A DNA stretch of 64,000 bases from Nymphaea colorata (GCF_008831285.2 NC_045149.1:17809035-17873034), one strand, 5' to 3'; shown: positions 5,885 through 35,205, counted from the first letter of the stretch. Notes: generated from the sequence alone by a model not told the origin. Translations and numbers: made by a program.

Positions 5885-7338
5885 CTAGGCGTCGATGGGA
5901 ATGCTGCGTAGGACGACGGTCTCCACGGTGATGCCGGGGCCGAAGCCAAAGAGGACACCGTAGTCGAGCCCTTCCCCGGTGGTGGGCAGCCCTTCCTTCT
6001 TCGACTTCCTCCTCATCTCGTCCAGGATGAACAACACCGAGGCACTGGACATGTTGCCGTGCTGGCTCAGCACCTCCCTCGTGGTGCTCAGCCTTTCGTT
6101 CTTAAGCCTCAGTGTCTCCTGCACCTGGTCCAAGATGGCAGGGCCACCTGGGTGCGGTATCCAGAAGATGGAGTTCCAGTCTGAGATGCCCAGCGGGTGG
6201 AATGCCTCGGTCAGGATCTTGTCCAGGCCACCTGCTATCAGCGCCGGCACCTCCGGCCGAAGGTGGAAGGTCATCCCACTCTCCCGCAGGTGGGCCCTTA
6301 TGGCAGTGCTGCACTCCGGCAGGATGGTCTGCCCCGTCCATGAGATCTCGAAGATGGGTTTCTCGAGCGTGGGGACAGGGTCAGCGCCCACGATGAGCGC
6401 AGCAGCACCATCGCCGAACATGGCTTGACCCACCAGGTTGTCGAGGTGAGTGAGGCTGGGTCCACGGAAAGCGATGAGGGCGATGAGCTCGGAGTTTATG
6501 ACCAGCACCCTCGCACCCTTGTTGTTCTCCGCTAGGTCCTTCGCCAGCCGCAGCACCGTGCCCCCCGCAAAGCAGCCCTGCTGGTAAAGCATGTAACGCT
6601 TGACCGAGGGCTGCAGCCCCAGCATCCTGGAGACATGGAAGTCGGCGCCGGGAAGGTCAACGCCGCCGGTGGCGCAAAAGATGAGGTGGGTGATGCTGGA
6701 GGCAGGCTGCCCCCACTCGGCGATCGCCTTCACAGCTGCCTCCTTCCCCAACCGGGGCACCTCCGGGATGATGACATCGTGACGAGCATCCAGGGAGGGA
6801 GCCATGTAGGCCCTAACATTGGGGTTCTTCTCCGCTATCTCTTCATTCATGTAGACGTGTCTCTTCTTGATCATCGATTTCTCACCTGCATGCACACACA
6901 CACTATAAAAAAAAAGAAAAAAAAAGCATAAATCTAAAGCAGAACGCCAATTGAGAACATTATTATCAGTTGCTGCAGTGTCTCTCTTAGTCCATTTAAC
7001 TTAGTTAAAAGATGGCATGCATCATCAGCATCGTTTTTTTTCTACTTTTCTCTTGTCTGAGATCAAACAGTTGAGCACCATGTCTATGTAAGTAATTGGC
7101 AATGGAAAGTTGTATATATAAGGTCTAAAGCAGCCGGGAAAGTGGAGTCAAATTAATTACAGAGTCTCTTGAACTTGTCCTTGAGGCCGACCATATGATC
7201 GGAGTCGGTGAGCTTGAAGTACTTGTCGGCGTAGGTGCTTTGGTCGACCACCTGCGTCGGCGACGCGGTGCCGATGGCCATCACCGTTGCCACACCGCTG
7301 GCCTTCTCTGCCATTGGGAGTTCGGCGATGCTCCCCAT
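5885..7338 (-). CDS. CHS-like type III polyketide synthase with altered active site (PKS2)
   Basis: Two exons: 7161-7338 (ATG at 7338, MGSIAEL start) and 5885-6885, joined at the CHS-type T|GT Cys codon. The protein has 392 residues, usual for the family. The thiolase fold would extend a CoA starter with malonyl-CoA in the cytosol. The triad is intact: Cys in QQGCFAGG, His in WIPHPGGP, Asn in QHGNMSSA, plus GFGPG. It differs from CHS around the cavity. [10 protein letters not shown] becomes [18 protein letters not shown] becomes SELIALIAF, with one extra residue and both threonines lost. AIDGHLRE becomes AIRAHLRE, so the Gly256 equivalent is Ala. Such positions control starter size and chain length in the family, so a non-chalcone product is likely but cannot be named. 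It is nearly identical to PKS3, including its promoter. Confidence 0.9.
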
Positions 7339-7460
7339 ATTGTAAAAGATCTAGAGAGAGGGATGTATATTGGGGAGCGGCGAACAGATCAGAGAGAGAC
7401 TGAGAGAGAAAGAGGGAGAGGCTGAGGTTGGTTGTGGATGAAGGTGGTGGCTTGCATGGC

Positions 7461-7468
7461 CTTTTATA
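7461..7468 (-). promoter_or_regulatory. TATA box of PKS2
   Basis: TATAAAAG on the minus strand, about 125 bases upstream of the PKS2 ATG, within a stretch conserved with the PKS3 promoter. The same box followed by GGCC or GGC occurs upstream of PKS4, PKS5 and PKS6. Confidence 0.7.
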
Positions 7469-7515
7469 CAGTACTGGAGTAGGGGCTGCCGCAAGAAGAC
7501 GGTAGGGAGCAAGTC

Positions 7516-7521
7516 CACGTG
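7516..7521 (-). promoter_or_regulatory. G-box CACGTG upstream of PKS2
   Basis: A palindromic CACGTG lies about 50 bases upstream of the TATA box, at the same relative place as in PKS3. G-boxes in CHS promoters are known bZIP/bHLH sites for light and stress induction; a role here is inferred from position and conservation. Confidence 0.55.
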
Positions 7522-7749
7522 ATACCGTTGCCAGCATGGATCGAAATAGAATCCCACTTCTTCTTCAGTTAAATTCCAGAAGGCGAGGTGCCAAAATCTC
7601 AGCTTCATCATTTTCTTCATTTCCGTCGTTTCAATTGGGAGGGGAGAGAGAGAGAGGCAGAGACCGAACCATATATAATTCTTCTCTAGAATCCCAGGCA
7701 AATCTGCATCTATGTAAAATCAAGGTCATCTTATCTATTCTAAACTAGT

Positions 7750-8843
7750 CTTGTGCATTTTCAGTTTCAATTCGTATTAGCCATACTGATCAGATTCAAT
7801 TCAGCATCGAGGTCGGGATATGTTTCTAAGAATCCAAGATAAAAATGAATCCAGCTTGGTAAAAGCCGCAAAATCTATACATATTAGGGTTTCCTTCATT
7901 TGTTATTCTTTCAGGTTTCATGGATCAGATATTGTTAAGGTCAGATATTATAAATGTGAAGCTAGTTTATTCCATAGTCATTTTTGATAAAGTCTGTGGT
8001 CTTGTGATCGTACATAGGCGGCTGCTGGCTGATAGTTGAATATCAATTAAGTGGTACGTCTCATAATCAATCTACATAGTCTTTATATTTGCTAAGTCTA
8101 CATATTTCGAAAGTCTTTATGTTCGGTTATTTCTTGATCAAGAGTTATTCTCATTCAAATATTTTAACATCAAGGTGTTTCGGCTTTTATTCAAATGGTT
8201 GGTGACAACACTATTTGTACCAGTGCTTCTTTGACATGTTCAAATGCCGTGTAGAACAATTTTCTTCGTTATTATTATAGTCCCATTGATTGTTTTTGGT
8301 CCAGTCATGAGCGCCATTTGTTCTTTTGAGCCCCATAAGGGTCATCACTTTTACAAGTTAATAAAAAAATAATTCACATAATTTTAGGAATAAACACACG
8401 AAGGAGCCCACGCACGCCAATCCATGGGTACAAAACATATTGAATTGCATATATAATGCAGATTCAAATAAGTAACGGGGGCAAAAGATGAAAATGCCCT
8501 TAAACCGAAACAAAGGAAAGAGAAACTCATAGGGGCAAAACTAAAAGAGTAAAGAGTTACCTTTTTTATTAACATGAACATACCTTGAAACAAATTAAAA
8601 AATATGTACGCACTCTTTGCATGTTAAAATTAACACAGAGAACACATATCGACGTTGCGCTATTTGTTGTAAAACTTCTTCTCTTTTGTAAGGCTTGATG
8701 GTCAGTATCATGCATGCTTAAATTTTAATGGGAAGAGATTTATTAGTCGGGTCGACTACGTGAATTCTCTCTTTCAGAACAGAGTTGAGCGGAGAATGTG
8801 TTGCCAACGAGCTATTGAAGATCCGTAACTGTAATATATCATG

Positions 8844-8889
<46 letters not shown>

Positions 8890-11800
8890 GGATTTATTTA
8901 CCAAGTAAACATTAGAAAAATAAGAAGAAAATGAAACGTAAGCACCTTCGTATTGCTACGCGCTAACAATTTACAGTTACAGAACATTGGAAAACTATGA
9001 AGAGACATGATGCTTCAATTTGTACTTAATAATGCATCACCATCATTCCTACCATGACTTTGTCCCTTTAGAACCTAAAAATCATAATGCTTCTGCTAAC
9101 ATGATCTGTCGGTCAAGATTCGAATAGAACTATTAGAAGTTGCTTTCCGAGGAATAGCGACCATCTGTTCTTTTCCCTGAAAAACAGTTCGCCCATTAGA
9201 TAGCAACAAAGACAAAGGGCTTCCAGTCAATGCCGGAGCTTGAAATATCTGAAGGAGAGGTAATAAACTTTAAATTGCAAACTTTAGAGGGCAGTCCACA
9301 TGTAAATAAGTAAAAGGACATGAGATATTATTTCTATATAAATAAACAATTCAAGTGGGATTGGTGCGGGCCATTGCCCACACAAGATATGCCACTGCTT
9401 CTGGTAATTAGAATAGTGGCAGTCCAAGGCAACTGACGAAGCAGGTTTTGAGGCAGTGAATACAATAGGGGGATCGCCCTTGAAGCTTGGGAAATTGAAA
9501 GGAAAAGGTACCAACAAGTAACTACCAATAATTTAATGCAAAGAACAGTCAATTTGTTCAAAAGAAATATGGGTCAGCTGTTGTTGATGTTGGATCTGGA
9601 CCTTAAGTGGCTGAAAGAGAACTGTTTTTAGTTGTTTGGATCACCAAACTGGATCAGAAGAAACAGAATTCAAGTTCAGGAAACTTATATGAGAACCCAT
9701 TCATTTTTATCCAATATCTATGTCTCTGACCAACTTCTCTTAAAACCTCAAATATCCTGGACCAATTCTGTTGCTAAAATCTTTCATGTAATGAAGACAT
9801 TTGTTCCATAAGGGAGTGTTCAATAACATACCATCACTGCCACGTGAAACTGCCCCTAAAAAATGGAGCAGATCCATCCAATATTACAGTATTTCATGAA
9901 TCTATCTTATTTTTTATTGGAGATTAATGGGACCGTGACAATGTGTTACAGTTACCAATCCGCCCCTAAACTCATCACTGACAACATGGATGAGGACTCT
10001 CTTGGCAATGAATTACCTAAGGATAGATCTGATATACGCAACAAAGGTGACATGGATGATATTCTAGCAAAATTTACAGTCCTTCACTCGTTCAGATATT
10101 TGATGCATGATTTATACACGCCCCTGCAATGGCTTTTACATTTTCTACATTGGTAAAACCTAAATGTGTTACATCCAATCTATCAAATTTTTTACTCGCT
10201 TAGAGAGAAAGTAGACACCTTTTCAGTAGTACGCGAGAAAGAGCAGAGGAGCAACTTTTGACTGCCGCCGAGAAAAGAAATCTCTTTTTCACACCAGCTA
10301 GACGCTCAACGCCTTTTAAGTTTTGAGGTTCCAATAGTTATGGGATGTACCGTAGGTGTTTCTCTGATACTGACTGTCCTTTTGGATCGTTATTGCGCTT
10401 CTATGAAAGACCCCAAGCAACAAATTAAAGCCCCAATTATGTTGGAACAAAAAGTCATAAAGGGAATCATTAGTATGTTGAATGAAGGGGAGGGGGAGAA
10501 ATACCAATGCATATAAGAACAAAGTGTGACTTGTCATGTCCCCATAATAATTCTTCCCTCCCCTTCATAATCATCCCCATAAACACCAACAACCAATTGA
10601 TTCATCTCCAAACCTTGGCCTCTTCCTCCTTCAAACTTAGCCACATTTTGATGGTTATCATTTCGGATCAATGAGTTGAAATGTGTATTATTACCAAGTT
10701 CGAACTAATCGGATTCTTTGCAGACTGTATTTTTTCGAACTGGTTCGGTCCAACAAATGTAACAAGTAAGAACTGACACTTGTATGTAATTCGATCAGAT
10801 TTCAGTTGCTCAGGCATCGAACTCAGATTTGAATTCAGTCATCGAACTGCATACTATGCTTCAGCCTGATTACTAGTAATTGGAATTAGGGGAGATACTA
10901 CTCCGAAGAGGTCGAAGCCCCTCCTCCTTCTTTTCCCTACACCAGGGTCCAGGGCTATTTTGGGATCTGGGTAGAGAGTGGGACACCATCAGAAAATTCA
11001 ATATAAAATCAGGATCTCTTGTAGCTAAACAAATTCAGAAAAGAAAAGAATCAGTAATTAGATATATCTGATCCGTTTACAATTTACCGAACACAGCTGC
11101 CAATATTGCAGGACCGGCAAACCCTTGTTTGGATAGACGGTGTTTGGTGGGCTGTCCTGATCATGACCAAGATGGCAGTCCGCTTAAGATGCTCTAACAG
11201 ACAGCCAACAAAAATGCTCGATCAGTAGTCCCTTAACTTCAAGTCTTCAAAGACATAATTATGTGATGCTCCTCCTGCTAGTAAGGATGGATTTGGCCAT
11301 GCATAATATCAATTCGGTTGAACAATATTCTCATCAACATCAGTATCTATTATCCTCTATCAAAGATTCTGTGTACGCAAGCACATAGTTCACATATAAG
11401 ATAGGCCCCTCGACGTTTATGATCATCAAGGAATAGGTAGGCCCGTGTGGTTTGATTTGTTATCAAAGAACAAGAAAAATATCTTAAGTTCACGCTAAGC
11501 ATTACAGTTGTGCATTAATCGTTGTAAAACTGCACACCGAGTATCATCAGTTTTCCTTCTCAACCAAAAATTTACATGTCTATGCCTCTAGATCTCATCA
11601 AATTAAAATTTTGCCTCCACCTCCATCAGATCCGATTCACGATATGGCGCTTGCATCTGTTGGTTCTGTTGTAGTCACCACATATCTCTTCTTTCTTCAG
11701 TATCACCGTTGCTGCCAGTGCAGTTTCCCACAAACATGTGTACAATGGAAGCCAGTGTTGAAATCATTTTCCTGTAGAACGAATCAGATGGGAGAGGATG

Positions 11801-14800
11801 CACGACAAAGCATATAATCCAGACTGACTTTGCATGTCCCCATTGACCAACATGCACCCTACCTGTCCCCATCTCCCCTGTAGTTGCTTTTCTGAACCTA
11901 TTCTCGTATCTTAAATTCGCCCAAGAATCACACTTGTGCATCACTTCTTCAACTATATCACGGTCATTTTCAAATTAGATATATACTCAAGTTGAAGTCT
12001 CACTAGAATATGATCTAAATCTACAATATTATGGGCATTTTTTTCCTTCGTAAATCCAATAGTCTGGATTCTTAAAATTCTAATTTTCAGAACAAGAACA
12101 CCTTTAGCAAGCATGTTTGTAAGAAGAGGATGTCAGATCCACTCAAGAATGCGATTTTGCAGATGGACTTAGAGCTGGCAACGTATAATCCCCGGCCTGT
12201 GTGCGTACATGGAGTGATGAATCTGCGTTCTTTTGGTTGCCCCACTTTGATATGCAATATTAGTTTCTCACATGCATACTAAGCAACAATCTTTGTACAA
12301 GATTTTGCTCTATGCAGTGGGGGCTCAACCCATTTGTCTTGTTTCTATGAACCAGTTGGAAATGGATGCAACCGTTTGGTGCCGGGCTTGTAATCGATTG
12401 GATTGATGAAATAATTCAGATTTCGCTTTCTTTAATTTCGTTCACTTTTCTTTCTTCTTCCTTGTCCAGATGGCCGACGTATATCCTCATCAAGTTGGAA
12501 GAAGGATCAATTAATTCTCTAATACGTTAATGAAAGCGCTCGTGCATTGTTTCATATCGTCTCCGTTTTCTTGCTGCAAGTTTCTTATTCGCCTTCATGG
12601 CTACCCACTGTCACTACTTCAGACTACCATCATCGCAAAACTTCTAATCAGTTAACTCGTTCATCCAATTGCAGACCGAAACAAAGAAAAATTAAGAGAA
12701 ACTCATTGATGTCAACATCTAAGTATGAAGAATGAAGACTCGAGATTAGGTCTTATCTCCGTCATTTTATTTGTACTGCGTGAGCTTAATTTTCTTTGAT
12801 GTTGTCCCCTTCGGCTCATTCACAATTGGAAAAAGAAAATTTAACAAGGTTGACTTGCACAGGAGGTAGAAAGACACATGGCAAACCTCTATGGAAGTGC
12901 ATTATGGAATCGCCGCCATGAGTCCGCAGCCTTAGGTGTGAACGGAATTGTTGAAATTTTGATCGTAGTTACTGAAAACTTCTATATAGTTGAACGGAAA
13001 ACTGACACCCCTATATATAAGCAAGTTCCCGGGCCGGAGGGCTTAGAACTTGAGAGATGGAAGCTTGAGGAAACATAACTGTATGTAAGTTTCCTTGTGA
13101 GCAGATGATCAGTGTGGTTACAGAATGTGAAAGGCGCGCCGAAATGATCTGTTTTCGCTTCTTAGTCGATTTTCCCGTTTTTTGATTGTTTTTCCATACT
13201 CAATATCAATAAACATGCCATTCAAGCTACCATATTTATATGCTTTGGTCTTAAAATTTTTCACCTTGTTTTGCCTTTTACTCATTTTTGTGTTCTTTAT
13301 CATTTGTTTGCGTCCTTTAATTTTGTATTTGATTGTTCTAACTTAAATGTTAGAGGTTCCCAAGAAGGATCATGTTGTCGCCTTCTATATATCTTCAAAG
13401 ACCTCAGTTCAAGGGAATGGGTAGATAACCTTTTACTTTTCGACCCCAAGAGCATCATGCATGGTTTCAGTTGAGAAAATATGGTGTAGAGACGGGCCGA
13501 GAACCATTAGTCCCTTTTTCTCCTATTTGGTATATGCACTGCACTGCAATTGCAGTGTTGTTAAAATCGGGATGAATTCTATCAAATATTGGGAAATCAA
13601 ATGGATTCACGGGTCGTCATAAGAGTTCTACATGTCACACATTGTTTCTTGTTGTATTATATTGTAAATACTTTAACGTCTTTGTAATTATTGTACATAT
13701 ACAGTTTACTTTAAAAAATAATGTTTTTGCTGATTCACAGCCGATACAGAATCAGCAAACCTCTCATTTCTAACCGGTTTCCGATTTTCAAAACGCGGAT
13801 ATAGTAAGAGTTGATACAATACAATTAACAGCGAAGTAGATCTAGAATCGGAGAGCAGATCTGCCTCTCGACCACAATCCGGACAGCGGGTCCCTCTGTC
13901 AAAGTTTTGGCCCCATTTTTTAACCATTCATTATGTGTTTCCCTAATTGCTATTTGTCTATTGCATTAGTAACTACAAGACATGGTAAGATAGAGGCTGT
14001 CCTATGGCCATCACAAGCGGCACGTATCCAGATCAAATTTAATTATCCAGATCCAAAAAGTAACAAGGGTTCCGCTTCAAATGGTCCGAACATCTATGCG
14101 TGTGGTTCATTGGCAGCGCTATCAACTACGAGATAATTTATTTAGCGATCTGCTTCGAGTTAATTAACTAGCCAAAGACTGAATCGGACATAACAATTTT
14201 CCGGGTCATTTTCGGCTGGATAAGCATTTCGCATCTGATCTATAAATCCACTCCGACATTTGGTAGTCAATCAAGAAATTGGAGTTGGTATTGGATCGAA
14301 GTTCAGAACTTGTGATCGGATTTTCTGCATGGTACATACATACAAGTCATGGTTAACAATATTGGACAGAAACCCAAACCCTCCAGGTCCGTGGCCTGTG
14401 ACTCCTATGTGTTCAAGACGTCAAGGTCCGGACCAACTGTGTGTGCTCATCCAGATTAGAACTTGGATCAAACCTAGCTAGACAACCAAACAGAATTGAT
14501 CCAATCCGTATTAGCTTCCTTGTATCCAAACCTAATGCATACATCCCTTCATCCATCCTTATCCATTATCCACGGTTCATGTGAGAGTTTTCTGACATGA
14601 GAAGGCAGAGGGCAAAGATGAACTACAAATTAACATCTTGCGTGGGACATGGCCATATACTGAAATAAATCATGATCGTCTGATAAAGAGCTTCATGGTA
14701 ACTGATCTATATATAGGGAGGGACTCTAAGGAATGGTGGTAGAGAGGGTGTTACTCTGCGCCATTTTTTTTGCCTCTGTTCCTCCAGTTACTTCACCAAC

Positions 14801-15000
14801 AAGAGTGGTTCCTCTAATCCTTGCATAGATCCACCTCTCCCAAAGTGGCAAAAAGGGGTGTGCGTGTGTGTGTATGTGCTGAAAATTGGGTGGGTGGAGC
14901 ACAATCTGCGGCTAAGCATGTTTACTTTAGGTAAGCTAGGTAGCATGAAAACCAAGAACTCACACCTGCACGACTCACCCACACCTAGTATCTGTTCCTT
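7750..15000. other. Long gene-free interval between PKS2 and PKS3, left part
   Basis: About 7 kb of AT-rich DNA. Frames are short, none resembles a known protein, and no RNA gene was recognised. It contains a CT microsatellite (8851-8885) and scattered low-complexity runs. Undetected diverged transposon remnants are likely. Confidence 0.4.
8851..8885 (+). repeat. (CT)n microsatellite
   Basis: Uninterrupted run of about 17 CT dinucleotides. Confidence 0.95.
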
Positions 15001-15003
15001 TAA

Positions 15004-15182
15004 AGGATTGTTTGGCATTAGGGATACTATATGAGTGTGTCATGAATCCGACCCAAAGATTGGACAGATTCATAGAACACTAAAACTAGTATTCCATGAA
15101 TATGCAGAATTTTTGGGACAGTATTTTATGAATCTGCCGAATCTTTGGGCAGATTCGTGAAACATTGATGCCAAACAACCCT
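15004..15182. mobile_element. Tourist-like (PIF/Harbinger) MITE, 179 bp
   Basis: The terminal inverted repeats AGGATTGTTTGGCAT and, at the other end, the reverse complement of AGGGTTGTTTGGCAT enclose a stretch that can fold on itself; the interior also repeats forms of CAGATTCATGAA in both orientations. It is flanked by the direct repeat TAA (15001-15003 and 15183-15185). TIRs containing TGTTTGG with a TAA/TTA target duplication are typical of Tourist elements. It carries no coding capacity. Confidence 0.78.
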
Positions 15183-20228: not shown

Positions 20229-20250
20229 CTCTCTCTCTCTCTCTCTCTCT
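20229..20250 (+). repeat. (CT)n microsatellite
   Basis: Run of about 11 CT dinucleotides. Confidence 0.9.
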
Positions 20251-21962: not shown

Positions 21963-21968
21963 CACGTG
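21963..21968 (+). promoter_or_regulatory. G-box CACGTG upstream of PKS3
   Basis: CACGTG about 52 bases upstream of the TATA box, conserved in position with PKS2. Confidence 0.55.
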
Positions 21969-22019
21969 GAGTTGTTCCCTACCGTCTTTTTGCTTTGCGG
22001 CAGCCCCCACTCCAATCTG

Positions 22020-22027
22020 TATAAAAA
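22020..22027 (+). promoter_or_regulatory. TATA box of PKS3
   Basis: TATAAAAA about 95 bases upstream of the PKS3 ATG, in a segment of about 340 bases that is recognisably homologous to the PKS2 promoter. Confidence 0.7.
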
Positions 22028-22121
22028 GGCACCGCCACCTTCATCCACCACCAACCTCAACCCTCCCTCCCCCTCTTCGCCGCTCCCTTATACACATCTC
22101 CGTCTCTAGATCTTCTACAAT

Positions 22122-23688
22122 ATGGGGAGCATCGCCGAACTCCCAAAGGCAGACAAGGCCTGCGGTGTGGCTACGGTGCTGGCCATCGGCACCGCGTCGC
22201 CGACGCACGTTGTCGACCAAAGCACCTACGCCGACAAGTACTTCAAGCTCACCGACTCCGAGCATATGATCGGCCTCAAGGACAAGTTCAAAAGACTCTG
22301 TAATTAATTTAACTCCACTTCCCACTTCCCCGACGGCGTTAGACCTTCTATATATAACTTACAATTGCCATGCACTTACATAGACATATGATGCTTCGAT
22401 TGGATTCGCACATTATTTGGACTAGTTTTACGCAAAGACATCGATCGCCCGGCTTGGTAGAAACCCACCCTGATGACCGACGCTTCGTTTACTTGATCCA
22501 AGAAACGAGAAAAGTAGAAAAAAGCGAAGCTGATGACGCATGCCATCTTTTAACTAAGGAAAATGGAATAACAGAGACACTGCAGGAACCGATAATAATG
22601 TTCTCAATTGGCGTTCTGCTATTACTTTCTTCTTTGTTTTTTTCTTCAGAGACATTTGACTCTGTGTGTGTGTGTGTGTATGTGCAGGTGAAAAATCGAT
22701 GATCAAGAAGAGGCACGTTTACATGAATGAAGAGATAGCGGAGAAGCACCCCAACGTTAGGGCCTACATGGCTCCCTCCCTGGATGCTCGTCACGACTTC
22801 ATCATCCCGGAAGTGCCCCGGCTGGGGAAGGAGGCCGCTGTGAAGGCCATCGCGGAGTGGGGGCAGCCCGCCTCCAACATCACCCACCTCATCTTTTGCG
22901 CCACTGGCGGTGTTGACCTTCCCGGCGCTGACTTCCATGTCTCCAGGATGCTGGGCTTGCAGCCCTCGGTCAAGCGTTACATGCTCTACCAGCAGGGCTG
23001 CTTTGCGGGAGGCACGGTGTTGCGGCTGGCGAAGGACCTAGCGGAGAACAACAAGGGTGCGAGGGTGCTCGTCATAAACTCCGAGCTCATAGCCCTGATC
23101 GCTTTCCGTGGACCCAGCCTGACCCACCTCGACAACTTGGTGGGTCAAGCCATGTTCGGCGATGGTGCTGCTGCGCTCATCGTGGGTGCTGACCCTGTCC
23201 CCACGCTCGAGAAACCCATCTTCGAGATCTCATGGACGGGGCAGACCATCCTGCCGGAGTGCAGCACTGCCATAAGGGCCCACCTGCGGGAGAGTGGAAT
23301 GACCTTCCACCTTCGGCCGGAGGTGCCAGCGCTGATAGCTGGCGGCCTGGACAAGATCCTGGCCGAGGCATTCGGCCCGCTAGGCATCTCCGACTGGAAC
23401 TCCATCTTCTGGGTACCGCACCCAGGTGGCCCTGCCATCTTGGACCAGGTGGAACAGACGCTGAGGCTGAAGGAAGAAAAGCTGAGCACCACAAGGGAGG
23501 TGCTCAACCAACATGGCAACATGTCTAGTGCCTCCGTGTTGTTCATCCTGGACGAGATGAGGAGGAAGTCGAAGAAGGAGGGGCTCGCCACCACTGGGGA
23601 AGGGCTTGACTACGGTGTCCTTTTCGGGTTTGGCCCCGGCATCACCGTTGAGACCGTCGTCCTACGCAGCATGCCAATCGACGCTTAG
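22122..23688 (+). CDS. CHS-like type III polyketide synthase with altered active site (PKS3)
   Basis: Exon 1 is 22122-22299 (MGSIAEL start) and exon 2 is 22688-23688, after a TGTGCAG acceptor. The 388-bp intron splits the Cys codon as T|GT. The product has 392 residues and differs from PKS2 at only a few positions. The catalytic Cys (QQGCFAGG), His (WVPHPGGP) and Asn (QHGNMSSA) and the GFGPG signature are present. It shares the clade-specific changes of PKS2: [19 protein letters not shown] with an extra residue, and AIRAHLRE. A cytosolic malonyl-CoA-dependent PKS is certain by family; starter and product are unknown. It lies in opposite orientation to PKS2, about 15 kb away, head to head. The promoter, intron and 3' flank are also related, so the whole transcription unit was copied. 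Confidence 0.91.
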
Positions 23689-24689
23689 CACTTAGCAGGA
23701 AGGTCTATATCTAAATATATGCAGCGTGCAGTTCAATAATCTGCCATTTCATATTCTTCCAAAGAAATACTGTCTTGACGAATCTATAGCTGTCTTTGAG
23801 TGTTCTTGCTGCTGTAAGCTTGGCTTCTTTCTTATGAATATCTCACATGGGTTTAGTTGGTCGTGTAACTCTTTCCTTTGTAGATAAGCTGGACAAAGGT
23901 GCACCGTTTGGTGCATCCTCATGAATGAATAAAATCTGGGTTTCATATTTTATGGACTGCGGCTCTTGTTTCCAAAGAAAGAATGCCCAATTGTTATTCT
24001 CCCATTGAACTTCAGTTTTTTATTAGATTAGAACGGAATATCAATTGTGCAAACAAAGTTAAACTGTCAACAACCATCCTTGCCTTCCTCCGGAACACAT
24101 TGCAATATATAGTATGGAGTTGTGAATGCTAAGTACAAATGACACAAGACAAATGGATGGTCAAATGAGACTTTTGAAATTTGTGGTTGTTTGTGTTATT
24201 GGATCATAAGAAGTTAACTGCATGACACTTGCAAGTTCTTACTTAGTCTGTAAATTAGAAAATGTTCTGCTCTTTTTGGAAAAAGGCTGTTGTTTTCAAT
24301 AAATATAGTAATGCTTTAACTCTTTGCCGGCATAAACAGATTTTGGGCCCAATAGGACATAATGTCCTGAAGTAGTTATTCGTGGCACATATAATAAGCT
24401 TTAAGACGTAATCTCCCCAAAATTCAGTCTTTACCAAAGTTGGGCATTACTTATGCTCTCCCATAAATGAGCATAGTATAAGTAGCAGTAACAACTATAT
24501 TTCCTTCATATTTCTTCATATTAACGAACTTGCTCTCATCACTAGTCTTGTGATTTGAGCGTATAGAATTAATCCCAAACAATCTAAAATTGATATTCTG
24601 CTCTTTCTTTACTAGATTTATATAAGAAAGCTTGCATCCTTCTACCAACTCTTGCATGGTCATTTCTTCTGCCTTGATCGAGTATAGAA

Positions 24690-24761
<72 letters not shown>

Positions 24762-25295
24762 TTTATATAAGAAAGCTTGCATCCTTCTACCAACTCTTGC
24801 ATGGTCATTTCTTCTGCCTTGATCGAGTATAGAAGTGATATATATATATATAGTTTTAGCAACTTCTCCATGTTATGAACCACTCGCTATGACTACAATT
24901 TTTTCATCTATCTTGACTCTGCAATTAGCGCAAAGTGTCTCAGCTTTCACATCTAGAACATTTCTCTTTTGTGGCCACTATTGTGGCTTTCCTCTTCTTG
25001 TACCTAGTGCACCTTTTTGTCTATTTTCTTGAATTTTCCTTTCTTGAGACCTTGAAATTGTCTTAGATGGTCTATGTGGTCTTGATTATTATTAAGCATT
25101 ACTTCATTGCTGTTTATTTTTTAAGTAAAAGTCTCTTCAATTGTTTTGGTAATGTCTCTTGATTAAGAGATTCTCCAAGTCTTGAACATCAACCATAATG
25201 TGGCTAAAACTCTAGATGAAGTCTACGCTTAAGAATTCTCTACATATGGGTCTCATATAATTTTATACATATGGACAATCTGAGAAATCTCACGA
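23689..25295. other. 3' flank of PKS3 and gene-free DNA
   Basis: At 23840-24000 the sequence is the counterpart of the 3' flanks of PKS4 and PKS5 (GGATGCACC and ATTTTATTCATTC blocks, here followed toward the gene-distal side by TTGTTTCCAAAGAAAG). Beyond it no gene is seen. A TA microsatellite with flanking duplication lies at 24613-24852. Confidence 0.55.
24613..24852 (+). repeat. 145-bp tandem duplication containing a (TA)n tract
   Basis: The segment starting TAGATTTATATAAGAAAGCT at 24613 recurs from 24758 with essentially no change over about 80 unique bases. Copy 1 ends in an AT run of about 66 bases (24693-24759); copy 2 ends in a short run at 24839-24852. The near-identity of the copies points to a recent event, or to an assembly artefact at the microsatellite. 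Confidence 0.9.
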
Positions 25296-25303
25296 CAACA
25301 AAT

Positions 25304-26757
25304 CAGTAGCGGAGCCACGCCAGCCCAAGAAAGCTCCACAGTGAAATGGAGCCTCAGTCTGCCTCACACCCGTGTTGATGACGTGTTGCCCATGCCAAAA
25401 ATGGATCAGGTCCAGCTGTCCACAGCGATCCAACTCCATAAAACATAAAACAGTCGCCCGCCCAAATTCACTCGAAAGTAGAAACTCCCGAAGGGCGAAC
25501 AGGCGAAGCAGCGAAGGGCAAGGCCTCAACCTCAAGGCGCAGCCGCGCAAGCCGCAAGGGTCAAGCCTCCAAGTCCAAGGGCGGCAGCAGCCGGCAGGGT
25601 GGCGCTGCTGCGGGCACCAGCCGCTAGGTGCTTCTTCTTCTTCTTCTTGAATGATTGAATGAACCTTTTCTTCTTGAATGGTGTTGGGTTTTCATGTGTT
25701 TTCCCCTTTTTCAACGCTTTTGCCTCATGCCTCTTCACTTATGTCTCTTGGTCTGATTTTTGTGCTAAAGAACAGAAGAAGCACCCAGATCTCGCCTACG
25801 CAGTCGGTGCTACGGTGGTTGCTTTGTCTTTGTCCCAGACTGGGGCTGGCAGACTCCCTGCTACGCCTCTACGGTAACTAGTTACTACGGTTTATCTTCT
25901 CGCTCGTTTTTTTTTTTTTTGGTTTGTTGCTTTTGTTCTTTATGTTATATTTCGTTAGGTTGTTTTCATAAAATACCGATTGTTCCCTTGGTTTGTTGCT
26001 TTTGTCTTCTTGAACAGTGTCTCACATAAACGATCCTCTAAAGACTACTTCCATTCTGTTTTGATACTTTTGTCTGTCCTATTGCCTATTGGTACATACT
26101 ACATAGAGTCTTCAATCGTAGTCTAGTTAAGGAAAAAAATCAATCAGTCTTTTCCTTTTTCTCCCTTGTTAAGAAACCTAAATTGATTGCACTGCTATGC
26201 TATCAGATTTGGTTACAAATTCAGTTGACCTGATATTGCTTAATGAGAATCTGTGTCAAATTCAAATTTAGTTGTTCATAGAAGCTTGAAATATATCAAA
26301 TTCAGCATGAAAACTTTGTACCAAATTCAAATTAGAATAGGGATTAAGCATAGACTTTCTTATTAAATTTCAATAATATATTTGAGTTCCAAATTTCCAA
26401 TCAACTATTAAATATTCCCCAAATCATTTATGAGTTTAGGTAGATCCAACCGGCTTGTGCCAACGGATTGGTCGCAAGTATTTAGACAGAGCTCTTGTTG
26501 GCATCAAAAGTAATACTTATAACAATTATTTTTAACAGACATAAGGAATTTCAGTCATCCAATTGACTATTTTGATGGCCAATTGTAATTTTGTCCACAA
26601 CACTAATGATATGATTTGCTTGTTGGGGCTCATTGTAAGTTTGTTTACAACTATGTTTATTTGTTTTATTTCAAAAAAACATACATTTTAGTTTGAAAAT
26701 TTTTTCACATACTATGTACTATTGCTCCATAGCCAAAAATTTCTGGCTCCACCACTG
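25304..26757. mobile_element. Non-autonomous hAT-like DNA transposon, 1.45 kb
   Basis: The left end CAGTAGCGGAGCCA and the right end, which on the minus strand reads CAGTGGTGGAGCCAGAA, form imperfect terminal inverted repeats. Flanking 8-mers CAACAAAT (25296-25303) and CCACAAAT (26758-26765) match at seven of eight positions, as expected for an aged 8-bp hAT target duplication. The interior starts with a GC-rich block (25440-25630) with codon-like composition and a TTC repeat. The rest is AT-rich. No transposase or BED/dimerisation domain is visible, so movement would need a partner element. Confidence 0.7.
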
Positions 26758-26765
26758 CCACAAAT

Positions 26766-27171
26766 AAAACTTTTGCGAACAATTGGAAACTGTTTCTAGA
26801 AGTATGAACGGTCATTCCTTATCAGAACCATTTTGCACTTTCTTTCGTTGAAGACAACTACAAGTTTGATGTTGTTTGACCCTTAAACACGTGATTAAGA
26901 CAACCCTGCTCGTGTATTGAAACAGTTTTTTCTTTTTTAAGTTAGAGGGCTACTTGAGTAATCTTAATATTCAATCTAACAAGGTCATGTTTATTAAAGG
27001 TAGTGTGTCCCTAAAAGGGTTGGCACAATAGTCGAGGTGGAAGCTAGTACACTGTTGTTCTTATTTTGAAACTCTAACGGGTCAATCTCTTGTGTCGCAA
27101 AAGGGGTCACTTATACACAAGTTTTTGTAATGGCGGCACCTTGATGCACCAAAAGCATGCCCTATACCCTA
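26766..27171. other. Gene-free spacer between two hAT-like elements
   Basis: AT-rich, no coding signal recognised. Confidence 0.4.
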
Positions 27172-27179
27172 AGGACAAG

Positions 27180-27927
27180 TAAGGCTGGGCATCGGGCCGG
27201 GCCGGCCCGACCCGGCCCAATAAAAATGTAAAAATGAAGCCCAATAACCTAAACGGGCCGGCCCGAGGCCCGGCCCGATTAATAATGGGCCGGGCGGGCT
27301 GAAATGGGCTTCGGCCCGGCCCGTTATTGAAAAAACTCAGACACAACGAATGCAGGAGGCAGCACAATTTACAGCTTCAGATGATGAAACACCATGGAGT
27401 ATCAAGTTCTTTTATAGGCACATTGATAGTTTACAGACTGAAGACCTTCACGGCAACCGGCACACGGTCACCGGAGAAGGCAGTCGATGGCGACGGCGAC
27501 GACCGGAGGAGCAGCCGATGGGCGAAGAGGAGGCAATGCCGCAAATGCAATGTCTCGAGTCTCGACGGGCGACGGTGACGACGAGTCTCGACGGGCGACG
27601 GTGACGACGGAAGGTCGAAAAGTAAACCCTAACTCTCTAAGCTCAAGTTCATTTTTATTTAACCCTAGGTCCCTAACGAGTAACGAAGTTCATTTAAAAA
27701 AAAAAAAAAACAACGGGCTTCGCGGGCCACCGCCGATCAAAGTGGCTGGCCCGCGCCCGGCCCGTTAGTTACTGGGCCGGGCCGAGCCCGGTAACTAACG
27801 GGCCGACTACTATAAAAGCAAGGCCCGGGCCCGGGACCAAGTCGGGCCGGGTACCCGGCGGCAGCCCGGGCCCGGGACCAAGTCGGGCCGGGTACCGGGT
27901 ACCCGGCGGCGGCCCGGCCCGGTGCCC
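27180..27927. mobile_element. GC-rich hAT-like element with GGGCCGGGCC termini
   Basis: The left end contains CTGGGCATCGGGCCGGGCCG; the right end, read on the minus strand, contains TGGGCACCGGGCCGGGCC. An exact direct repeat AGGACAAG (27172-27179 and 27928-27935) flanks the block, consistent with an 8-bp target duplication, although the right TIR is about seven bases shorter than the left. CTGGGCA plus GGCCCGGCCCG subterminal arrays are a well-known style of plant hAT element. The interior (27330-27700) has an unrelated GACGACG-rich segment, including a repeated GACGGGCGACGGTGACGACG, perhaps captured from a gene. No transposase. Confidence 0.65.
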
Positions 27928-27935
27928 AGGACAAG

Positions 27936-29209
27936 GGATTGGGTTGGGAATTTCAACTTTTTTTTGGGCAGTAGATGAAATACTCTTTTTGCTCTCCCAT
28001 TTTAGTATTAAAGGTGGTGCGTCCATGAGGGTTTGAAACACATGGTGCTCTAGAATTAACGCGAGTCTATTTAATTATTTCTAAAACTATTTACATGGTA
28101 CGAATTTATTTTATGAACATTACAGTAGCCAACATTTACAAGTAGAATCCTTGAATGCCAAAAATGTAAACTAGTAAATGGCTAGGTGATTCAAGGCAAT
28201 CCAGTTTGTTCTCCGAGGCTCCTCTGACACTAGAAAAGAGTCGATGAACGAATTTATGTGGAAAACATCTGCCTAAGTAATCCAGGCGATTGGCAATGGA
28301 AGCACCGCCGCTAGCTGGCTCTAACTTTGATGGAACGTATAGTACTAATCACCCAAGCAAATGACGAGCCAAGGAACCGCAGTAACAATGACATGATTTC
28401 GGCATAGTTAAACGAGGTATATGAATTGATCAATCATACAATCGTGATAATCGACCATAGATGAAGCTCGGCATATTAATCTTTAAGTTTAGTATCATGA
28501 ATAGAATTATAGGACCTCCATCCTCATCATCATCATTTGTAAGTCATGGCATAGTGATCCAGTAATTAATAACAAAAGATTTTCTACTCAGAAACAAAAT
28601 AAGAACTGACAAATTAATACTTCTTATGATCCGACGATCGACATAAAGAAGCTCAAGTTTCTACAAGTCTCATTTAAGCCTCCACTCGTCCTGTGTCGTT
28701 CGTACTTATCTTTCACAACTCTATCAGCAACTATAGTGTGATAAGGCGTGTGGCAAGGAAACAAAGGAGAAAGCATGAAATAGTTAGTGCGAGAAGGCGT
28801 GTTGTTCACAGGCACTTTGAATTTTGGCATAATTATTGTTGGTTAATAATTTAACTGTAATGGAAAAAAATAATATTCTGTTCCAACAAAGTGAGAAATT
28901 TTCTGTTGGAACCCATCAAGAAGTAGAAGGTTATCGGAACAATGACACTTGGGTTTTCTTTCTTTGTAAACAAGAGCTTCAAAATGCATAAAGTACATGA
29001 AACCCTAATTTTATTCATTCATGAGGATGCACCATTACATAACATGAGAAATTCATAAGAAAGAAGCCAAAACCTACAGCAGGGAGAACACTCAATGATT
29101 GCTATAGAATCTTTGAGGCATTATTATTATTATTATTATTATTTTGGTGAATATCACATAGAAGGTAATGAACTGCATGGTGCATATAGTCTGGGTGTAG
29201 ACTTTCCTG
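27936..29209. other. Gene-free interval and 3' flank of PKS4
   Basis: No gene recognised in 27936-28890. From about 28920 to 29209 the sequence is homologous to the 3' flank of PKS5 (AACAAGAGCTTCAAAATG..., GAGGATGCACCA..., GAAGAAGCCAAAAC...). A (TTA)n tract lies at 29121-29143. Confidence 0.5.
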
Positions 29210-30687
29210 CTAGGTGTGGATGGGAATGCTGGGTAGGACGACGGTCTCAACGGTGATGCCCGAGCCGAATCCAAAAAGGACACTGTAGTCGAGCCCTTCC
29301 CCGGTGGTGGCAAGCCCTTCCTTTTTTGACTTCCTCCTCATCTCGTCCAAGATGAACAACACGGAGGCACCGGAGATGTTGCCGTATTGGCTGAGCACCT
29401 CCCTTGTGGTGCTCAACCTTTCTTTCTTCAGCCTCAGTGCCTCCTGCACCTGGTCCAAGATGGCAGGGCCACCTGGGTGCGGTACCCAGAATATGGAGTT
29501 CCAGTCGGAAATGCCCAGTGGGTGGAATGCCTCGGCCAGGATCTTGCCCAGGCCACCAGCTATCAGCGCCGGCACCTCCGGCACCAGGTGGAAGGTCATC
29601 CCACACTCCCGCAGGTGAGCCCTTATGGCATTGCTGCTCTCCGGTATGATGGTCTGCCCCGTTCACGCGATCTAGAAGATGGGTTTCTCGAGGGTGGGAA
29701 CAGGGTCAGCACCCACGATGAGCGCAGAAGCACCATCGCCGAACATGGCTTTGACCCACCAAGCTGTCGAGGTGGGTGATGCTGGGTCCACGGAAAGCGA
29801 TGAAGGCGAGGAGCTCAGAGTTTATGACGAGCACCCTCGCACCCTTGTTGTTCTCCGCTAGGTCCTTCGCCAGCCCCAGCACCGTGCCTCCCGCAAAGCA
29901 GCCCTGCTGGTAGAGCATGTACCGCTTGACTGAGGGCTGCAAGCCCAGCATCCTGGAAGCATGGAAGTCGGCGCCGGGAAGGTCAACACCACTAGTGGCA
30001 CAAAAGATGAGGTGGGTGATGCTGGAGGCCGGCTGCCCGCACTCCGTGATCGCCTTCACAGCAGCCTCCTTCCCCAACCGGGGCACCTCCGGGATGATGA
30101 GGTCGTGACGATCATCCAAGGAGGGAGCCATGTAGGCCCTAACGTTGGGTAGCTTCTCCTACAGCTCATCGTTCATGTAAACATGCACACACACAAAATC
30201 AAATCTTAGTTCGTTGGGTAGCTTCTTGATGGTCGATTTCTCACCTGCATGCACACACAAACACACACAAAATCAAATCTTAGTTCGTTAGCAGCCGCTC
30301 TGTTTCCCAATTTAGCTTAATTCAAAGATGACATGCATGATCAGCTTCGCTTGGTTTATCTGTGAAGGACGATGTCTTTACACAAAACCAGTCTAAATAA
30401 AGTGCCATCCAAATGAAGCATCATATACGTGCAAATGCATAGCAAATAGGTTGTATGTAACGTCTAAAGCCGCCGGGGAAGTAGAAAGTGGAGTTAAATT
30501 GATTACAGAGTCTCTTGAACTTGTCCTTGATGTCGACGGCCATTTGGTTGGAGTCGGTGAGCTTGAAGTACTTCTCGCCGAAGGTGCTTTGGTCGACCAC
30601 CTGTGTTGGCGATGCGGTGCCGATGGCGAGCACTGTAGCCACACCCCTGGCCTTCTCTGCCTTTGGGAGGTCGTCGGTGCTCCCCAT
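29210..30687 (-). pseudogene. CHS-like polyketide synthase pseudogene (PKS4)
   Basis: Exon 1 (30507-30687) is open and encodes MGSTDDL through KFKRLC, with one extra codon compared with the paralogues. Exon 2 (about 30244 down to 29210) is broken. After the GT start it reads EKSTIKK and then runs into a local duplication that includes intron sequence. A TAG follows at 30159-30161. An extra T at about 29750 shifts the frame at GQ(A)MFGDG. TAG (29672-29674) and TGA (29663-29665) replace a Glu and a Trp codon just beyond. The catalytic Cys, His and Asn codons survive in separate frames, and GFGPG has become GFGSG. The gene belongs with PKS2/PKS3/PKS5 by its SELLAFIAF and [10 protein letters not shown] motifs. 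No full enzyme can be made; a transcript could still exist because the promoter and TATA box remain. Confidence 0.93.
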
Positions 30688-30783
30688 ATTGTTGTTGGAG
30701 AGAGTGAGAAGAGAGCAGCAACCTAGAGAAGCGAGGAAGCTGAGAGGGCTGAGGTCGGTGATGAAGGTGGTGCTCTCCATGGC

Positions 30784-30791
30784 CTTTTATA
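30784..30791 (-). promoter_or_regulatory. TATA box of PKS4 pseudogene
   Basis: TATAAAAG on the minus strand about 100 bases upstream of the PKS4 ATG, in the same context (followed by GGCC) as PKS2 and PKS5. Confidence 0.6.
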
Positions 30792-30814
30792 CGGCGGACT
30801 GAGTGGGCGCTGCC

Positions 30815-31600
30815 TCTGGCTTCCTCATTTTCATCATTTCATGTTTGTTCAATGAGAGTGGGAGGGAGAATTGTTTTTATCACCGTGAAAGTGCACCTAA
30901 CTTGCCCAACGCAGTTGCGCACAAGGTGTGTATTGGTTTAGAAAATATTCTGTGGTTTTATCTCCAGTCTTAGATTGTATATGTCGATGATTTATTGGTA
31001 ACATTCATGTCTATCAAACTTTACTTGTTGATTAATGAAAGACATTTTTGTTGACAAGTTTTTTTTTATATACATACAGGTGTAACGTAAAACTATATAA
31101 CTAGCGTTCCATACGAAACTTTTGTGCCTCCACCCGACATCCAGCACCAACTTAACACTAGCTAACCCTCAGTTTAAGCAATTTTCTTTTTCTAGTAAAT
31201 TCACACTACCTTTTTAGTTATGTCAATTAATTTTATTAATCCATTTTTAGATAAATGATTTTCCCGGCAACCTTATAAGGAAGTTGAGCAAGAGAAACTT
31301 GGGTGTATTTGAAAAGTTGAAATACTTCTCATGTTCTTTCTTTAAGTGTTGAAATAGTAATTTTACTAAACAGATTTTTCGATAGAAATAAACTTATAGA
31401 TGCATTTTTTTTTATTAACCATGAATGAGCAACTGAGTTCTGTTTTTGAAGACAAAAAAGTTGAAGTGCATTGTTAATTATTGTCAGCCTTTAAGCGAAC
31501 TTTCTTAATACTGCCATGTGCCGGATGTCGCACGCTGTATGGTTAAATTTTGAAAATTGACCATTAAAAAACAGTCGCTAAATTGGTGTCATGGTTTATG
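30815..31600 (-). repeat. PKS4 upstream region, duplicated with that of PKS5
   Basis: Blocks such as CTTCCTCATTTTCATCATTT, TTATCTCCAGTCTTAGATTG and TTTACTTGTTGATT recur in the same order at 35340-36090, upstream of PKS5, with indels between. The duplication unit therefore included several hundred bases of promoter. Confidence 0.75.
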
Positions 31601-31844
31601 CTGCGGTGAAGGTTTATGGTGGCTTTATTGACATTTTATGTTCGTTTTGGAGACGAAATTTAAATTTAAGTCATCCAACAATCATACACTGCAGCATTGA
31701 TTTCTATTTTATTGATCAATAAAAAGGGTTATGGGGGCCCTTCACCCCTGCAGGCTTGAAATGGAATTTTGTTGCTTGCAGAGAGATAGATTCCATGGCA
31801 AATCATAGGTTTTCAAGCTGGTATATACTATTTGCCATTCAATT

Positions 31845-31910
31845 GTGTTTTCATTCTTCATAAACAAGAGCTTCAATGCACAAAGTACACGAGATCTGTG
31901 AAACCATCCA
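31845..31910 (-). pseudogene. Relic of a PKS 3' flank without its gene
   Basis: ATAAACAAGAGCTTCAATGC followed by ACAAAGTACACGAGATC closely resembles the 3' flank of PKS4 at about 28965-29005. Here no exon 2 follows; the interval to PKS5 holds no PKS coding sequence. It probably marks a deleted copy. Confidence 0.5.
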
Positions 31911-32529
31911 CACCCACAAAACACATACACACAAGAAAACTTATCCTCATTTCCACAGCAGCTGAAGAGATATAAAGATATAAGACTAAAAAGAACGCCC
32001 TGCCTCCTGCTGCAGAATATTGCTGTCATCTCTTTCTCTCTCTCTCCGTCCTTGCAATTTTTTGGTAAGGATTATTTCATCTGGCCCATTGAATGGTTCA
32101 ATGGATTGTTGGGATTGAATGGGCTTTTCCTTCGTGTAGTTTCAGAATCATGACTGAATTTTGAAATATGTTAATCCGTAGATTATGTATCTGTGAAGTT
32201 TGTCATGATTGTGCTTCTTCTTGATGGAGAAGAAAAGAAAAAGTAAAGATATAGATGTACACTGATGACAGTATATAAACTTCAACTTTAGAGACATCGA
32301 CTTTTGATTGTAATTCATTTTTTTTATGTATAAATTGTGTAATTAATAATGAAATTTCAATTTTAAATAACTTTTCTCTTTAATTGATATATATATATGT
32401 ATATTTACGCAAGTATAGAAGGATGAGGGACTTTGCCCGCCATTTGAAAAGAGTCGGTGGTTTCCCCAACACAAGCAAGCCCGGCACTTGTCAATTGACG
32501 GTAGATGCTGTTTGTGGTGTTATTGGATG

Positions 32530-33130
32530 AATGCAGAATTCAAATATGGGCATCCTTTCGGGTTCGAATGTACTTAAATATCCAATTATATTTAAGCACA
32601 GATTCGAATCAGATTTATTTTCAAACCAATATCACATAGCAAATTCAGTTTAAAATTAAGATTTAGATTGTAAAATCGGATTTCAGATTTAGATATATTT
32701 TTTCTCTGTTCGTATTCAAATCTAAATATATAAATATCCCAAAAAGTGGATAAAATCAAGGGTATATCAATTAGAATCTGATTCATTCACATCTCTAAAT
32801 GGGAGAAGGAGAGAAGACAAAATTTTTTAAAAAAAAGGAAGAAGTTTTCTTTTTAATATTCATAAATCAAACTTTGTCCAACCAAAATTTTTAATTTATA
32901 TCGAACGAAGTGGAGAGAAGTTAAGGAAGGTACGCTGCTACATTTGGTAAGGGATAGGAACATTCTTGAAGGGCCACCTTAGAATGCGTTCGGTCACTGC
33001 TACATTTACTTGGGTTTCTTGTTCTCGGGATCAATCCTCAATCAGGCTGTGAGTTGATCAGTAGAGAGTAGAGACGTTCTTTTCTCAAATGTTTCAATGT
33101 GTTTTCAAAACCCTTTTGAAAAAAGAGAAA
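32530..33130 (+). repeat. Left arm of an inverted repeat flanking PKS5
   Basis: The core 32862-33130 is matched in reverse complement by 36391-36702: ATAAATCAAACTTTGTC, CTACATTTGG, GGGCCACCTTAGAATGCG, GATCAATCCTCAATCA and CTCAAATGTTTCAATGTGT are shared. Outside it, 32530-32800 is a degenerate TATCC/GATTCGAAT repeat whose relative lies outside the right arm. Confidence 0.75.
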
Positions 33131-33584
33131 AACAAGAATGGTTTTCTGGAATTAACAGCAATTCTAGAATTAATTTAATGCCTGTTCAAGTTTTCAGTTG
33201 GACAAATATGCAGGAAACTTTTTGCGCCTACGTTTCTTTATCACAGAAGCAACTCCCTATAGCATACCCCAGCGAGAAATTTTCCATTCCAACCCATCAA
33301 AAGGTTGAAGATCATCGATCGGAAGAACGACAATTGGGTTTCTTATTTTTCTTTGATAAACAAGTGCTTGAATGCATGACCCAGATTTTATTCATCCAAG
33401 AGGATGCACCAAACAGTCCACCCGCGCCCAACTTATGCACATAACAGAGAGTTATATAACCAACCAAAACCTTGTGAGAAATTCGTAAGGAAGAAGCCAA
33501 AACTTAGAGCAGGGAGAACACTCAAAGACTGCTATAGAATCTTCAAGGCATTATTTATTCGTGTGAATATCACGTAGCAGTTTA

Positions 33585-33712
33585 TGAACCGCATGGTGCA
33601 TCTCTTTAGATGTAGACTTTCTTAACATGTATCGATGGGCATGCGGCATAGAACGACTGGCATCAACGGTGATGAACTGTATGGTGCACATATTTAGATG
33701 TAGACTTTGCTG
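33585..33712 (-). repeat. Partial duplication of the PKS5 3' end
   Basis: CGCATGGTGCAT, TTTAGATGTAGACTTT, GATGGGCATGCGGCATAGAA and ATCAACGGTGATG (33585-33674) repeat, in the same order and about 88 bases away, the sequence that spans the present 3' UTR and the last coding bases of PKS5 (to 33763). The outer copy is a decayed C-terminus no longer used. Confidence 0.75.
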
Positions 33713-35205
33713 CTAGTAGGCAATGGGCTTGCTGCGTAAGACGACGGTCTCAACGGTGATGCCGGGGCCGAATCCGAAGAGGACACCGTAGTCGAGCCCT
33801 TCTCCGGTGGTGGCCAGCCCTTCCTTCTTCGACTTCCTCCTCATTGCATCCAGGATGAACAATACGGTGGCACCGGACATGTTGCCGTACTGGTAGAGCA
33901 CCTCCCTCGTGGTGCTCAACCTTTCCTTCTTCAGCTTCAATGTCGCCTCCACCTGGTCCAAGATGGCAGGGCCACCTGGGTGCGGTACCCAGAAAATGGA
34001 GTTCCAATCGGAGATGCCCAGCGGGTGGAACGCATCGGCCAGGATCTTGTCAAGGCCAGCAGATATCTTCCCTGGCACTTCCGGCAGAAGGTGGAAGGTC
34101 ATCCCACTCTCCCGCAAGCTGGCCCTTATGGCATTGCCGCAGTCTGGCAGGATGGTCTCCGCCGTCCATACGATCTCGAAAATGGGTTTCTCAACGGTGG
34201 GAACAGGGTCAGCACCCACGATGAGGGCAACAGCCCCATCGCCGAACATGGTCTGACCCACCAAGTTGTCGACGTTGGAGATGCTGGGTCCGCGGAAGGC
34301 GATGAGGGAGAGCACCTCAGAGTTGATGACCAGCACCCTCGCACCCTTGCTGTTCTCCGCTAGGTCCTTCGCCAGCCGCAGAACCGTGCCCCCCGAAAAG
34401 CAGCCCTGCTGGTAGAGCATGAAACGCTTGACCGAGGGCTGTAGACCCAGCAATCTGGAGACATGGAAGTCGGCACCAGGAAGGTCAGCGCCGGCAGTGG
34501 CGCAAACAATGAGGTGGGTGATGCTGGAGGTAGGCTGCCCCCACTCGGCGATTGCCTTCAGCGCCGCTTCCTTCGCCAGCCGGGGCACCTCCGGGATGAT
34601 GAGGTCGTGGCGAGCATCCAGGGAAGGAGCCGTGGGATCCCTAAGGTTAGGGTGCTTCTCCAACATCGCCTCCTCCAGGTATGTGTGTCTCTTGTGGACT
34701 GTGGATTTTTCACCTGCATCCAGACACACACAGTCAAGTCTCTCGTTCTCCTTTGCAAAAATATTGAAAACAAAAGCAAGTCGATTTGAGAATTTTATTG
34801 GTTAATTCGGTAGCAGAGTCTCTGTCACCCGATTTAGCTTAGTTCAAAGATGGCATGCATGATCAGCTTCTCTTGGTTTATCTGCTACACGAAGGCCACT
34901 GTCTTTGCATAGAAGCAGTGTAAAAGCATCATATAGATGTAAATGCATAGCAATAGCAATGGGAAGTTAAGTCGTATGTAAGCTCTAAAGCGGCCGGGAA
35001 GGTGATAAGTGGAGTAAAATTAATTACATATTCTCCTGTGCTTGTCCTTGAGGCCGGCCATATGTTCGGCCTTGGTGATCCTGAAGTAGAGGTCGGGGAA
35101 AGTGCTTTGCTCGATCACGTGCACCGGCGACGCGGTGCCGATGGCAAGCACTGTAGCCATACCACTGGCCTTCTCTGCCCTTCGAAGGTGGCCGGTGCTT
35201 CCCAT
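33713..35205 (-). CDS. Divergent CHS-like type III polyketide synthase (PKS5)
   Basis: Exon 1 is 35028-35205 and exon 2 is 33713-34713, joined at the T|GT Cys codon; 392 residues, ending KPIAY. The triad is intact: Cys in QQGCFSGG, His in WVPHPGGP, Asn in QYGNMSGA, plus GFGPG. It is the most diverged intact copy. [10 protein letters not shown] becomes [18 protein letters not shown] becomes SEVLSLIAF with the clade's extra residue, GHLREAG becomes ASLRESG, and exon 1 reads [16 protein letters not shown]. The family reaction is certain; the product is unknown, and the extra changes suggest a specificity different from PKS2/3. It lies inside an inverted repeat and has a partial duplication of its own 3' end just downstream. 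The intron and upstream region match PKS4. Confidence 0.88.

Follow-up and report, generated by a model that had tools for sequence, protein, structure and literature searches.

A maintained pair of divergent chalcone synthase-like genes in Nymphaea colorata, with a loop insertion convergent with that of kava styrylpyrone synthase

In plant type III PKSs of the chalcone synthase/stilbene synthase (CHS/STS) superfamily, certain pocket positions bear on specificity: the residue at 197 has been linked to both chain length and Claisen closure, that at 256 to the starter as well as chain length (PMC6274091; residues are numbered throughout as in alfalfa CHS2). Styrylpyrone synthase (SPS) halts after two malonyl-CoA additions and then lactonises (PMC9614166; PMC8388576). 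In CHS promoters, a G-box together with CTACC-type motifs has been described as the light regulatory unit (PMC8287782), and in Nymphaea colorata itself a falsely fused triple-CHS gene model has been described (PMC10283260). Here, we analyse a cluster of CHS-like genes of this water lily containing a divergent pair, PKS2 and PKS3, that is maintained, and a loop insertion that is convergent with one in kava and adds a new twist on a known kind of enzyme.

The window analysed is a stretch of 64,000 nucleotides (C12:17809035-17873034); positions given without a contig are counted from its first letter. We delimited the CHS cluster by a genome search with PF00195. It begins upstream of the window, with at least four further CHS-type loci there: copies A (C12:17791246-17792804, plus strand), B (C12:17799317-17797879, minus strand) and C (C12:17801365-17802936, plus strand, just upstream of the window), and an exon-1 fragment, D (near C12:17806654). 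The canonical CHS, PKS1, straddles the border, with exon 1 just outside it on the upstream side (C12:17808543-17808720) and exon 2 at 70-1067 (plus strand). The fused triple-CHS model may correspond to the tandem copies A, C and PKS1. Copy C is 93% identical to PKS1 and shows pocket changes of its own (T194A, T197M, R199H, and YQLGC for YQQGC); its 500-bp promoter lacks a G-box, and it appears to be a second, younger divergence from CHS within the same cluster. Exon 2 of copy B has a near-identical copy on contig C1 (43721545 region) with no exon 1 within 1.2 kb upstream, which suggests a 5'-truncated transposed duplicate.

Three intact divergent genes lie within the window: PKS2 (minus strand, exon 1 at 7161-7338, exon 2 with the stop at 5885-6885), PKS3 (plus strand, exon 1 at 22122-22299, exon 2 with the stop at 22688-23688) and PKS5 (minus strand, exon 1 at 35028-35205, exon 2 with the stop at 33713-34713). 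Each has two exons and encodes 392 amino acids, with GT-AG intron ends and a CHS-type intron that splits the Cys60 codon. Chal_sti_synt_N and Chal_sti_synt_C domains above cut-off, together with Cys-His-Asn and GFGPG, identify them as plant type III PKSs of the CHS/STS superfamily; NCBIfam matches were to distant bacterial models only. Two pseudogenes, both on the minus strand, belong to the same clade: PKS4 (29210-30687), with a 33-bp insert carrying a TAG and a 1-bp frameshift, and PKS6 (44334-45817), which in separate deletions has lost 1 bp, 30 bp spanning the loop and 21 bp. The stop and last codons of PKS5 are overlapped by an 88-bp two-copy tandem repeat (33584-33761, 76% match), and its C-terminus, SKPIAY, is unlike that of its siblings. 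The window also holds genes unrelated to the PKSs, a Branch gene (core-2/I-branching, PF02485) that has two or more exons and is situated between PKS5 and PKS6 (38611-42216, minus strand) and a long reading frame resembling a leucine-rich-repeat receptor kinase (56247-58970, minus strand), as well as a perfect 148-bp tandem duplication (61068-61362, 100% match) that must have arisen very recently unless it is an artefact of assembly.

An earlier note on this DNA had described PKS2, PKS3 and PKS5 as paralogues with a remodelled active site beside a normal CHS, and the alignments agree with it closely. Within intact two-exon models, the three keep Cys164, Phe215, His303, Asn336 and GFGPG, as well as Thr132, Glu192, Ser338, Phe265 and Pro375. 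They have in common T131A, S133G/A, M137L, C190N, L214M, D255R, G256A, L263M, K269P and D270E. As the note had it, TTSGVDMPG has become AT(G/A)GxDLPG (ATGGVDLPG in PKS2 and PKS3, ATAGADLPG in PKS5), the equivalent of Gly256 is Ala (codons at 6293-6295, 23278-23280 and 34121-34123 in PKS2, PKS3 and PKS5, respectively), and the 194-197 loop has gained a residue and has no Thr at either position. The segment around it, 13 residues long in CHS, has 14 in all three genes, and the lengthened loop reads NSELIALIA in PKS2 (6470-6496, minus strand) and PKS3 (23077-23103, plus strand) and NSEVLSLIA in PKS5 (34298-34324, minus strand). HMMER independently gives the same one-residue gap relative to alfalfa CHS2; the exact site of the inserted residue is ambiguous, as HMMER and MAFFT differ within SELIALIAF. 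The note's view that the changed positions matter for specificity is also well founded, since 133, 194, 197 and 256 have all been tied to it (PMC6274091).

We measured the extent of the remodelling against a reference set of eight CHSs that includes PKS1 itself and has 244 invariant columns. PKS1, which the note had called canonical, carries the consensus at 244/244, which only means that it agrees wherever all eight, itself included, agree. At these columns 37 changes are common to PKS2, PKS3 and PKS5, and PKS5 is changed at 17 that are unchanged in PKS2. Judged by the CHS pocket (S133, T194, T197, G256 and normal loop length), PKS1 fits a bona fide CHS and the three other genes do not. The loop change is not the product of chance or mis-splicing, since it lies within exon 2, PKS2 and PKS3 agree on it at a dS of 0.23-0.30, and the pseudogene PKS4 keeps the same lengthened loop and Ala256. 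That the insertion might stem from mis-splicing or from an assembly error was likewise dropped because it occurs in four paralogues.

The note had taken the inserted residue to be without precedent, which was not borne out. We searched all PDB sequences with an 82-residue fragment of PKS2 and with a comparable one modelled on rhubarb BAS. The latter served as a probe only; alignments used the sequences printed in PDB. Among the best 60 matches listed for each search, with some 40-50 lower-ranked matches beyond, only the 6OP5 chains, Piper methysticum styrylpyrone synthase 1 (PmSPS1), align without the one-residue gap. Its 194-197 loop, CSEITTAVNFRGPS in the PDB sequence, is one residue longer and has the same length as that of PKS2, PKS3 and PKS5; kava CHS (6CQB) has the 13-residue version. 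Ten changed positions are common to PmSPS1 and PKS2, against 3.0 expected (3.3-fold), with only two identical residues. The changes of the clade also overlap 2.3- to 2.8-fold with those of 2-pyrone synthase, BAS and pine STS, and 1.7- to 2.8-fold over other divergent PKSs, so the match with PmSPS1 in part reflects no more than the frequency with which these positions change.

We built trees from PDB sequences and this genome; their deep branches are weakly supported. The eight intact CHS-like genes of the genome form one group (94/94, or 87/94 with the loop columns removed), and PKS2, PKS3 and PKS5 come together as a clade with 100/100 support and a long stem. This clade falls inside none of the sampled clades of characterised type III PKSs, and the undescribed specificity that the earlier note had proposed for it is plausible. 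With the loop columns removed, PmSPS1 groups with Piper CHS (99/97), and forcing it together with PKS2, PKS3 and PKS5 is 41 lnL units worse (p-AU 0.00012), which led us to reject common ancestry of the clade with Piper SPS. Hence, the one-residue extension arose twice, independently in the water lily clade and in kava. In the DNA tree, PKS6 is the first branch of the clade, followed by PKS2 to PKS5; its loop region was removed by its own 30-bp deletion. As the pseudogene PKS4 also has the longer loop, the insertion predates the radiation of PKS2-PKS5, and the remodelled sites are ancestral to these genes. PKS2 and PKS3 themselves appear to have arisen via local duplication of a CHS. Elsewhere in the genome, copy L (C5:11276119-11278581, minus strand) carries another insertion of one residue, distinct from that of the clade and located three residues beyond it (FRGPGSGTQ), along with T132I, S133G, M137L and F265I. 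It appears to be a third divergent CHS-like lineage, and a broken neighbour, copy M, lies at C5:11254499.

PKS2 and PKS3 are under strong purifying selection, and the own branch of PKS5 is not distinguishable from neutral evolution. Pairwise dN/dS (NG86) is 0.11 for PKS2-PKS3, 0.41 for PKS2-PKS5 and 0.31 for PKS3-PKS5. Branch models on seven genes (our own GY94/F3x4 code, topology from the 94/94-support tree) gave an omega of 0.091 for CHS and neighbouring branches, 0.118 for B/L, 0.106 for the stem of the clade, 0.114 for PKS2/PKS3 and 0.63 for the PKS5 terminal branch. Fixing omega at 1 costs 57 lnL units for the clade and 24 for the stem; for PKS5 it costs 0.34 (2 delta lnL 0.7), which is not significant. 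The earlier note had three intact copies conserved under selection and proposed dN/dS among them as a check. Constraint was indeed found for PKS2 and PKS3, but not for PKS5, whose omega is compatible with 1 and whose promoter is without the CHS light unit. Wholesale gene conversion behind the match between PKS2 and PKS3 was dropped, as their differences are spread along the CDS.

The promoters of the pair keep that light unit. PKS2 has CACGTG at 7521-7516, CCTACC at 7506-7501 and TATAAA at 7468-7463 (unit 7501-7521, minus strand), and PKS3 has CACGTG at 21963-21968 and CCTACC at 21978-21983 (unit 21963-21983, plus strand). The CACGTG-CTACC spacing is 16 bp in PKS2 and PKS3 and 15 bp in PKS1 and copy A; the pair of motifs is absent from the 500-bp promoters of PKS4, PKS5, PKS6, B and C. 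Base-shuffled promoters show it within 20 bp in about 0.2-0.6% of cases. Since the unit was inherited from one ancestor, its presence in PKS2 and PKS3 is retention and not two observations.

Altered in this way, the copies probably make a polyketide different from chalcone. Our preferred reading, tentative and of somewhat less than even confidence, takes PKS2 and PKS3 to be functional type III PKSs of CHS origin, no longer mainly chalcone synthases, which under control like that of a CHS would turn hydroxycinnamoyl-CoA into an early-terminated pyrone, PKS5 being a drifting or newly diverging sibling and PKS4 and PKS6 dead copies. Its demonstrated parts are the homology, the changes in common, the constraint acting on PKS2 and PKS3, the promoter unit and the loop length convergent with kava; the product we infer. 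Local duplication of a CHS would have been followed by T131A, S133G, M137L, C190N, L214M, D255R, G256A and a longer, Thr-free 194-197 strand at the starter/cyclisation pocket, with purifying selection since then and retention of the CHS light-regulatory promoter in PKS2 and PKS3. Hydroxycinnamoyl-CoA would still be loaded on Cys164 and extended with malonyl-CoA. The shifted strand and the lost Thr197 would disfavour the folding of the tetraketide for Claisen closure, and the chain might be let go early as a pyrone, either a triketide styrylpyrone or a tetraketide lactone. By analogy with SPS, and given the role of position 197, a longer strand that lacks Thr197 would be expected to tip the outcome from chalcone closure towards release of a pyrone.

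One might speculate further that the water lily acquired its own pyrone-forming PKS via an insertion in the very strand independently lengthened in kava SPS, so that lengthening it would be a recurrent way of going from chalcone to pyrone; we regard this as doubtful. Descriptions of how type III PKS active sites change usually concern substitutions, and here there are two independent one-residue insertions at one strand. As the product of one of the two enzymes is known, they would provide a testable rule for turning a CHS away from chalcone. A specialised polyketide branch would also be added in one of the earliest-diverging lineages of flowering plants. A literature search for stilbenes or pyrones in Nymphaea gave nothing specific. 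The long reading frames around the PKS genes included none recognisable as a tailoring enzyme.

The pocket changes might have other consequences. The clade is changed in the stretches that separate pine STS from CHS (M137L, V98, V99, S133, D255, K269, D270) and keeps Thr132, Glu192 and Ser338; PKS2 and PKS3 might then perform an aldol-type, stilbene-like cyclisation, the changes at 96-99, 131-137, 255-258 and 268-273 altering the Thr132-Glu192-Ser338 network as in STS. STSs arose several times with different residues, which limits what a sequence comparison can say here. Only E54D and M137L are identical to pine STS residues and the longer loop occurs in none of the STS chains among the PDB matches listed, and we consider such a cyclisation unlikely. 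The pocket might instead accept a different starter, be it an aliphatic, benzoyl or dihydrocinnamoyl CoA, in the manner of 2-pyrone synthase, biphenyl synthase or bibenzyl synthase. The loss of Thr194 and Thr197 and the bulkier residue 256 do sit in the starter/elongation pocket, and in other enzymes comparable changes determine which starter is chosen (PMC6274091). The earlier note had drawn the parallel with 2-pyrone synthase, and 197 and 256 are both changed. But the analogy is weak, as residue 256 goes no further than Ala and Ser338 is kept, against T197L/G256L/S338I; the bulky 197/256/338 signature (L/L/I) is thus absent from the clade. Moreover, the CHS promoter unit alongside suggests a phenylpropanoid context, and a change of starter also seems unlikely to us.

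PKS2 and PKS3 might have remained chalcone synthases, extra copies with tolerated changes, which would agree with their intact catalytic residues, Phe215, Phe265 and GFGPG, their overall identity of 70% to PKS1 and the promoter unit they share with it. We find this quite improbable in view of the 37 shared changes at CHS-invariant columns, which include both loop threonines and the insertion. Drift in redundant copies of a wholly decaying clade would suit the pseudogenes PKS4 and PKS6 and PKS5, further diverged and with a branch compatible with neutrality, but is very improbable given omegas near CHS values for PKS2/PKS3 and the stem, and the cost of setting the stem to 1.

Returning to our preferred reading of PKS2 and PKS3 as pyrone-forming enzymes, its distance from the known systems can be set out. 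With bona fide CHSs (PKS1, alfalfa CHS2) the clade shares fold family, catalytic triad, the gatekeeper Phe215, GFGPG and intron position, and in PKS2 and PKS3 only the promoter unit, whereas CHSs have the shorter loop with Thr194 and Thr197, Gly256, Asp255, Cys190 and Met137. Pine STS is alike in its changed STS-specific stretches and M137L, but hardly any of the STS residues themselves occur in the clade and STS has no loop insertion. Gerbera 2-pyrone synthase is changed at 197 and 256 as well, but without an insertion and with L256/I338 where the clade has A256/S338. PmSPS1 differs in the letters of its loop (EITTAVNF against ELIALIAF in the clade), so that the match is one of length only; it keeps Gly256, Thr132 and Met137 where the clade has Ala256 and Leu137, and its F265I is absent from the clade. 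Yet its corresponding loop is also one residue longer, positions 98, 133, 197 and 255 are changed in it too, V100P and K115A are common to it and the water lily enzymes, and like them it appears to derive from a CHS of its own lineage.
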